Shown here: positions 40,486 to 41,848 of the stretch, in pieces
How positions within the stretch are numbered: the stretch's first letter is position 1
Layout: each line of letters starts with the position of its first letter
Assembly: GCA_016871275.1 (NCBI GenBank)
Contig: VFZG01000024.1
Coordinates: 1 to 49,966, forward strand
Direction of reading: 5' to 3'
DNA from: Acidimicrobiia bacterium
GTDB lineage: Bacteria; Acidobacteriota; Vicinamibacteria; Vicinamibacterales; UBA2999
DNA length: 49,966 nucleotides
The notes under the pieces: generated by a model
The model's input: only the letters and a program-made list of their open reading frames with translations
Told to the model about the DNA's origin: nothing
Database searches by the model: none
Position numbers and translations under genes: made by a program

Positions 40486-40557
40486 GCTAGCCCGCTAGCC
40501 TGCTAGCCCGCTAGCCCGCTAGCCTGCTAGCCTGCTAGCCTGCTAGCCCGCCAGCCT
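40486..40557. repeat. Octamer tandem repeat between convergent genes
   Basis: Nine consecutive 8-bp units, GCTAGCCC or GCTAGCCT (the last GCCAGCCT). GCTAGC is itself a palindrome, so the tract can fold in many ways. It fills the gap between the Spy-like fragment and the P-type ATPase gene and reaches into the latter's stop codon (40556-40558). Confidence 0.85.
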
Positions 40558-41848
40558 ACGCGCGGAGCAGCCGCAGTCCGTTCAGCGTCACCACCACCGT
40601 CGTGCCAGTATCCGCAAGCACCGCCAGCCACAGCGGCGCCGCACCGAACACCGCGAATACCAGGAAGGCGAACTTCGTCGCCAGCGCGATCGTCACGTTC
40701 TGGCGGATCACCCGCAGCGCGCGCTTGGCGTGCGTGACCAGGAACTCGATGTCCTCCTCGCGATCGCAGGTGAGGACCACTTCAACCCTGTCCAGCGGCT
40801 CCGGCGAAGTCCGGCACTGCACCGCCACGCCTGTCTCCCGCATCGCCTGCATGGTCGGCGCCTTCGCCGTCGCGATCCGTTCGAGCGGGCCGCCGCCCTT
40901 GCACAAAACCCCGCGCCGTGCCGCCGACGTGAGCGCGGCGACGACGGTGACCGGGGTGGAAATCACCAGGGCACAGGGACATGCGAGCACCAGGAAGATC
41001 AGGCCGCGATAGAACCACACGCCCCACTGGCCATCGATGACCGGTGGGATCAGCACCACCGCGAACGCCGCGAGGGTCACCACCGGCGTGTAGATTGCGG
41101 CGAACCGCTCGACCCATCGCTCGACCGGTGCGGACTCGTGACCACGGTCGTCGCTCCAGCCGGGTTCGTGACCCACCAGCGCGGCCACCGCATGCCGCGC
41201 GCGATCGATGCTCCACGCTTCCAGCAAATGCGCGATCGCGAACAGAAACGCCACGGCCGCCGCCTCCGCCCACTGTCCGACCGCGGCGGCGCCGATTGCC
41301 GACAGACACACCAGCACGTGCATGTCGAGGCGGCCGAAGCGCAGCGACGTGATGGCACGCGGAAGCATCGGCCACAGGCCGGTTGCCGCCGACACACCAT
41401 AGGCCACGGCCGCATAGGGATAATGCGAATGCCCGCCATGCTCGTTGTGGAAGCCGAACACCGCCTCAACCCAGCTGTCGGCGTGGAAGCCGTCGACCAG
41501 CCAGCCGGCCATCAGCACCGCGCCGCTGGCCGCCGCCCACCACTGCGCCGTGTCGTGATGATGATGGTGCGCGGGATGGTCGTCGCCGACCACGTCGCCG
41601 GCTTCGTGCGCATGCGCTGCAAGGCCGGTGGCGGCAACCGCAGCGGTGAGCGCCGCCGCGGAGGTCAGATCGGGATTGAAGGTGACGTCGACGCGGCGCC
41701 CAACCAGATCGAAGTTGAGCGCTTCAATGCCCGGCCTGGCCAGCGCGCGCCGGATCAGCGCCGCTTCGTCGGCGCAATCCATGCCCGCGACGTGGAGCCG
41801 AAGCTCAGAGCTCCTGGACTGCGGCAAGGACTTCCTCGGCGTGGCCAT
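40556..41848 (-). CDS. Heavy-metal P-type ATPase lacking actuator and phosphorylation domains
   Basis: 430 residues, against about 700 for the family. Present: a heavy-metal-associated domain (about 14-80, LRLHVAGMDCADEAA), a His-rich stretch (DDHPAHHHHHD), the membrane helices, and the metal-site motif ACPCAL (about 290). Missing: the actuator motif TGES, the phosphorylation motif DKTGT and the hinge GDGxND. One gap is at about residue 225 (ALVGHEPGWSDDRGHESAPV), the second at about 325 (LERIATAKAPTMQAMRETGV). The frame is open and the final helices (IRQNVTIALATKFAFLVFAV) remain. It cannot pump by ATP. It overlaps the end of bcp by 44 bp. Confidence 0.85.
   Translation of the reverse strand: MATPRKSLPQSRSSELRLHVAGMDCADEAALIRRALARPGIEALNFDLVGRRVDVTFNPDLTSAAALTAAVAATGLAAHAHEAGDVVGDDHPAHHHHHDTAQWWAAASGAVLMAGWLVDGFHADSWVEAVFGFHNEHGGHSHYPYAAVAYGVSAATGLWPMLPRAITSLRFGRLDMHVLVCLSAIGAAAVGQWAEAAAVAFLFAIAHLLEAWSIDRARHAVAALVGHEPGWSDDRGHESAPVERWVERFAAIYTPVVTLAAFAVVLIPPVIDGQWGVWFYRGLIFLVLACPCALVISTPVTVVAALTSAARRGVLCKGGGPLERIATAKAPTMQAMRETGVAVQCRTSPEPLDRVEVVLTCDREEDIEFLVTHAKRALRVIRQNVTIALATKFAFLVFAVFGAAPLWLAVLADTGTTVVVTLNGLRLLRA

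Follow-up and report, generated by a model that had tools for sequence, protein, structure and literature searches.

P-type ATPases have been described as enzymes in which an actuator (A), a phosphorylation (P) and a nucleotide-binding (N) domain drive the membrane helices. The closest described system to the protein reported here is the P1B-2 pump ZntA of Shigella sonnei (4umv/4umw), in which C392, C394 and D714 are metal ligands, K693 is the counter-ion, E202 the release residue and F210 the gate (roles as given in PMC6305203 and, for K693, D714 and E202, also in PMC8880997). We analyzed a 49,966-nucleotide stretch of contig VFZG01000024.1 (positions 1 to 49,966, hereafter the window; assembly GCA_016871275.1, Vicinamibacterales, Acidobacteriota) and found in it a gene for a P1B-2 (ZntA-like) metal ATPase that has neither A nor N domain and almost no P domain, which we refer to as headless. 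ZntA and the headless protein carry the membrane helices, the CPC motif, the M5 Lys, the M6 Asp and the M2 Glu and Phe at matching places. ZntA, however, keeps A, N and the whole P domain, whereas the headless protein retains only a P-domain stub. The two also differ at the funnel, where E184 and E214 of ZntA are both replaced by His, and at the site of the HMA domain, which reads CxxC in ZntA and DCxxE in the headless protein.

The headless gene is a single open frame of 430 codons, with an ATG at 41848 and a stop at 40556-40558 (Table 1). An earlier note on this DNA had reported TGES, DKTGT and GDGxND as missing from one open frame, and the comparison with homologues agrees: TGE, DKTG and GDGxxD are absent from all 19 headless proteins retrieved, and with them the phosphorylated Asp of DKTG(T), a defining feature of ATP-driven P-type enzymes (missing in 19/19). 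Each of the three motifs is present in all 27 full-length rows from the family and order and in 55-58 of the 58 rows from other genomes, both sets having been picked for the presence of DKTG. Against the intact pump encoded on contig C30 of the same genome, the protein has lost 94 residues at the A domain (21 remain of 115) and 209 at the P/N region (49 of 258). The linker at the A site measures 20-22 residues in all 19 headless proteins versus 107-116 in the nine intact pumps compared, and the P/N remnant measures 49-58 residues in 15 of the 19 and 31 in the other four versus 253-258 in the same pumps. The note was thus right that the A domain is cut out, but the P domain, which it also listed as cut out, is not wholly gone: an end stub remains and, together with M5-M6 (residues 329-429), aligns with ZntA 632-730.

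Profile searches gave the same picture. Pfam recognized the HMA domain (E 6.3e-08) and, above the cut-off, only the last 76 positions of E1-E2_ATPase (PF00122, profile 106-181 of 181), and it returned no Hydrolase (P/N) match in the window protein or in any of the 16 members scanned. The best NCBIfam matches were ZntA-type pumps at scores far under their cut-offs (PRK11033, 215.3 bits vs 1005; TIGR01512, 164.6 bits vs 313.5). The protein lacks the phosphorylated Asp, the TGE loop and any nucleotide domain and so, under the established mechanism, can neither use ATP nor run a P-type cycle. The protein is therefore a member of the P-type ATPase superfamily by descent (partial PF00122 match, tree and fold match) and not by the catalytic features that define the enzyme. 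In a split enzyme, the A and P/N domains would come from a separate soluble protein, and soluble P-type catalytic domains are known in archaea. We regard this as very improbable here, for PF00122 matches nothing in this genome but three long P-ATPase frames and the headless gene itself, and no free-standing A domain was found there. As all three long frames also match the P/N family, none offers an A domain in trans; a search with PF00702 returned the same three frames and eight shorter ones (99-420 codons, one at a contig edge). We ruled the split enzyme out, save for the case that the assembly misses a piece encoding a separate A domain.

The path of the metal through the membrane, mapped by alignment to ZntA, has been kept. 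C290, C292 and D413 stand at the places of the ZntA ligands C392, C394 and D714, K392 at that of the counter-ion K693, E195 at that of the release residue E202 and F203 at that of the gate F210; all six are invariant in 19 of 19 headless proteins. The residue set of the P1B-2 type (CPC in M4, Lys in M5, Asp in M6) is present throughout, with CPC and the M5 Lys found in every member and the M6 Asp invariant by alignment column, and helices MA and MB are seen in the model of the window protein. The HMA domain, matched in 15 of 16 members scanned, the CPC helix and the final helices were thus rightly listed in the note as kept. A His-rich loop ahead of MA, which the note had also listed, is found in the window protein and in 15 of the 19 overall (4-11 His), and the MA-MB loop carries 1-5 His in all 19. 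A His at position 207 is exclusive to the headless proteins (19/19 vs none of 85 full-length rows, one of which has a gap there), whereas H177 is also present in 5 of the 27 and 5 of the 58 full-length rows. The AlphaFold model, built from 44 sequences (18 headless, 26 others), scored a pLDDT of 89.9 and a pTM of 0.86 and has an HMA-like start, long membrane helices like those of P1B pumps and, in place of the P domain, a small stub. Its top Foldseek match was ZntA 4umw (E 2.9e-9) at a TM-score of 0.48 by query, a modest value that may come from the missing domains and a different conformational state. VIA-align gave Z scores of 24.6 to ATP7B (7xuk, 397 residues) and 16.3 to 4umw (289 residues).

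The same architecture recurs in homologues, the first point that the note had put up for checking. A protein search at E <= 1e-60 returned matches without internal stops in 19 of the 162 genomes of the order Vicinamibacterales, in the identical 19 carriers among 193 genomes of the class, and in 9 of 396 genomes of a phylum sample, all among the 19 already known. All carriers belong to one family of 43 genomes, and comprise 9/9 genomes of the window's genus, 4/5 of genus g21, 4/5 of g10 and one each of g6 and g22. Most matches span nearly the whole query; that in G029 starts at residue 93 and that in G036 is in two pieces. The G029 homologue (L031, 7988-9049) has no aligned HMA domain, either because the domain was lost or because the start was misread. 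Two peptide patterns, which would miss distant independent cases, were run against one genome per species and matched 404 stretches, of which 339 were relatives; among the 78 distinct loci kept from the best 80, 17 (L033-L049, all titled as metagenome-assembled genomes) were headless and one (L050) was degenerate. The titles of the 17 name Acidobacteria or Vicinamibacterales taxa, except that of L033 (Cyanobacteria), which is probably a mislabel. In the phylum of the L055 genome (record titled Myxococcales), profile A1 at 1e-42 matched one of 282 genomes, but the match was not counted as headless because it covers only profile positions 3-222 and lies in a 722-codon frame. Such a protein was not found described in the titles or abstract openings listed by searches of the open-licence literature, a scope outside which most subscription papers fall; we regard it as a pseudo-ATPase of P1B-2 descent.

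A tree of 105 rows, built from the 298 columns common to headless and intact proteins, placed the 19 headless rows in one clade (bootstrap/SH-aLRT 100/100). Its sister group, joined at 100/99, comprises the full-length C30 pump of the same genome, the pumps L053 and L148, and L050; the tree flagged long branches (e.g., L099, L106 and L148), whose own positions are unsure. The two in-frame losses proposed in the note are thus correct, and because the headless proteins form one clade, both cuts probably happened once, in an ancestor within one Vicinamibacterales family. The C30 pump (G000:C30, a 774-codon frame) shares H177, V180, W212 and T421 with the headless protein. Unlike the headless protein, it and its kin L053 and L148 keep the A, P and N domains (the C30 motifs are TGEP, DKTGV and GDGIND), and they have only 0-1 His in each of the two loops that are His-rich in the window protein. 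L050 (Acidobacteria bacterium isolate new MAG-255; L050:4177-6024) is a degenerate P1B ATPase in an open frame of 617 codons. Like the headless proteins, it lacks TGE, DKTG and a Pfam Hydrolase match, its P/N region is cut to 129 residues and its outer loop has 4 His; unlike them, it still matches the whole A-domain fold (PF00122, 3-181 of 181). Its locus resembles the window in the headless gene alone, the only one of eleven neighbour queries to match. L050 shows that catalysis was lost in another form in the same corner of the tree, in one genome only. Downstream of the L050 gene lies what looks like a sigma factor gene.

The state of the locus before the headless gene was not found in the family: since all 16 peroxiredoxin loci of non-carrier genomes lack both a gamma-glutamyltransferase and a headless match within up to 1.5 kb, none shows an arrangement that preceded it. 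Full-length pumps, retrieved from 15 of the 19 carrier genomes, are encoded apart from the headless gene, at other places. Ratios of nonsynonymous to synonymous substitution (dN/dS), calculated by NG86 and rough because some dS values are near 1, ranged from 0.08 to 0.16 over whole headless genes in seven pairs. In the membrane core the headless values for five genome pairs (0.028, 0.102, 0.048, 0.056 and 0.099) were lower than those of the full-length pump in the corresponding pairs (0.128, 0.093, 0.084, 0.136 and 0.132) in four of the five. Values were higher in the less constrained regions, up to 0.34 for the His-rich/MA stretch and up to 0.33 for the P stub. Selection on the frame, the second point that the note had singled out for checking, is thus purifying, and neutral decay does not fit. 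With homologues of the same architecture present as well, the combination named in the note as refuting its reading, absent orthologues and relaxed selection, did not occur. A pseudogene or an assembly artefact, which the apparent second deletion close by on the contig might have suggested, has next to no chance of being the explanation: the same cuts recur in 19 genomes, no match has an internal stop and dN/dS is low, and we ruled it out on the open matches and dN/dS. What these comparisons show is a vertically kept headless ZntA-type ATPase in which purifying selection has maintained the HMA domain, MA-MB and M1-M6 ever since the cuts.

The conserved residues point, at close to but slightly short of even odds, to an ATP-independent membrane protein that binds metal or lets it permeate, and that would handle a soft divalent metal (Zn2+-like). 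More specifically, and with a probability of roughly 0.4, deletion of almost all of the engine, with the complete ion path kept, may have made the pump a metal permease or membrane metal relay that needs no ATP. Metal would be collected at the DCxxE site of the HMA domain and by the His-rich loops, pass to the retained CPC/Asp site between M4 and M6 and exit past the retained release Glu, either down its gradient or by transfer to a periplasmic acceptor. As the gene is probably translated with the upstream peroxiredoxin and gamma-glutamyltransferase, the protein may serve under thiol or metal stress. Several points weigh against this proposal. Without A and P domains nothing known would open or close the path, and leaking metal would be costly unless gated. 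Since pump sequences were in the input alignment of the AlphaFold model, its fold is neither independent proof nor an independent test of descent. The conservation of E195, K392 and D413 could serve folding alone, and the funnel and cap are unlike those of ZntA (H177 for E184, H207 for E214, V180 for M187). The HMA domain is missing in one of the 16 members scanned, and the cytosolic His-rich loop has no His in four of the 19, all of genus g21. Further, five of the 19 loci lack an entire peroxiredoxin gene next to the headless gene, and L020 and L025 have about 1.4 kb between the two.

The strong conservation of the membrane core would also suit a partner or negative regulator of a full-length pump, acting in mixed complexes with a ZntA-like ATPase. 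Catalytically dead paralogues form such complexes in other protein families, and full-length P1B pumps are encoded on C30 and C14 of this genome as well. P1B pumps are, however, mostly held to work as monomers, and a dominant partner needs no intact metal-path residues, so that we consider this role improbable.

The upstream neighbours of the headless gene are shared by most loci. Of the 19 loci, 14 have a whole, co-directional peroxiredoxin gene upstream and 17 have the PD40-gamma-glutamyltransferase gene there, and no locus lacks both. According to Pfam, the product of the latter gene in the window combines PD40 beta-propeller repeats, a Tricorn C1 stretch and a gamma-glutamyltranspeptidase domain. 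In the window and L018 the headless gene overlaps the peroxiredoxin gene, which suggests that the two are co-translated. In L024 (G002; 8995-9066) the peroxiredoxin gene seems to have been lost, with only a 24-codon piece left directly upstream of the headless gene. A gene order common to the members of one family argues only weakly for joint function.

On the other side of the headless gene, a response regulator and/or a histidine kinase was found in 14 of 19 loci, in most of them with a Spy-like gene in between. Their presence, together with the kept metal site and the clade-specific His207, would suit a membrane sensor or buffer, a protein that binds metal without moving it and either signals to a neighbour (Spy or the two-component system) or holds the metal at the membrane. 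Yet in the loci read closely the two-component pair lies beyond the convergent Spy gene, outside the operon, and neither gene was found in the window or in L020, where the sequence continues into a TLC/MFS gene or a piece of one (nor in L021, L022 and L024, where the contig stops within 2.5 kb). Outside the window, the top kinase match in this genome has 32% identity. Furthermore, the release Glu, the gate Phe and the counter-ion Lys are conserved no less strictly than the ligands, which favours movement or hand-over of the metal over pure sensing and, among the scaffold, passive channel and sensor offered in the note, leans towards permeation. We therefore regard a sensor or buffer as rather unlikely and prefer the permease or relay.

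Beyond the headless gene the window differs from these loci. L018 and L023 have the response regulator and histidine kinase between the TLC/MFS-HEAT-cNMP and Spy genes, and a DUF6265 gene between the Spy and headless genes. In the window none of these three was found, and the TLC/MFS-HEAT-cNMP gene (36376-40182) runs directly into a Spy-like gene without its N-terminal end (window 40060-40182), either through a real deletion or through an assembly error. Between the two convergent genes, about nine tandem copies of the 8-base unit GCTAGCCC (40486-40556) extend up to the stop codon of the headless gene.

Table 1. Positions in the window of the headless gene, its parts and the adjacent genes.
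Feature	Position	Strand	Remarks
Headless P1B-2-like ATPase gene	40556..41848	-	430 aa
N-terminal HMA domain, MDCADE motif (residues 18-75)	41624..41797	-	Pfam PF00403
His-rich loop, HMA to helix MA (residues 78-103, 8 His)	41540..41617	-	Cytosolic side inferred from P1B topology
MA-MB loop (residues 119-147, 5 His)	41408..41494	-	Periplasmic side inferred from P1B topology
Helices M1-M2 with H177, release Glu E195, gate F203 and H207 (residues 176-225)	41174..41323	-	
21-residue linker replacing the A domain (residues 222-242)	41123..41185	-	
CPC metal-binding motif of M4 (residues 290-292)	40973..40981	-	
P-domain stub at the site of P and N loss (residues 328-376)	40721..40867	-	
Helices M5-M6 with counter-ion K392 and metal ligand D413 (residues 364-429)	40562..40759	-	
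Peroxiredoxin gene (PrxQ/Bcp type), upstream	41805..42266	-	Overlaps the headless start by 44 bases
Gene for PD40 repeats fused to gamma-glutamyltranspeptidase	42263..45340	-	Upstream of and overlapping the peroxiredoxin gene
Spy/CpxP-like gene (Metal_resist, LTXXQ)	40106..40471	+	Convergent with the headless gene; N-terminal end missing in the window

Our results suggest that, in a pump of this kind, the membrane half can be useful on its own. This lineage lost the domains that drive the membrane helices and kept the membrane path under selection similar in strictness to that on the pumps, or stronger. It thus becomes testable whether the membrane half can bind, gate or pass an ion by itself, and the headless proteins would, if the proposal is true, be a natural test of it. 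An annotation based on HMA and CPC, moreover, does not always mean an efflux pump.
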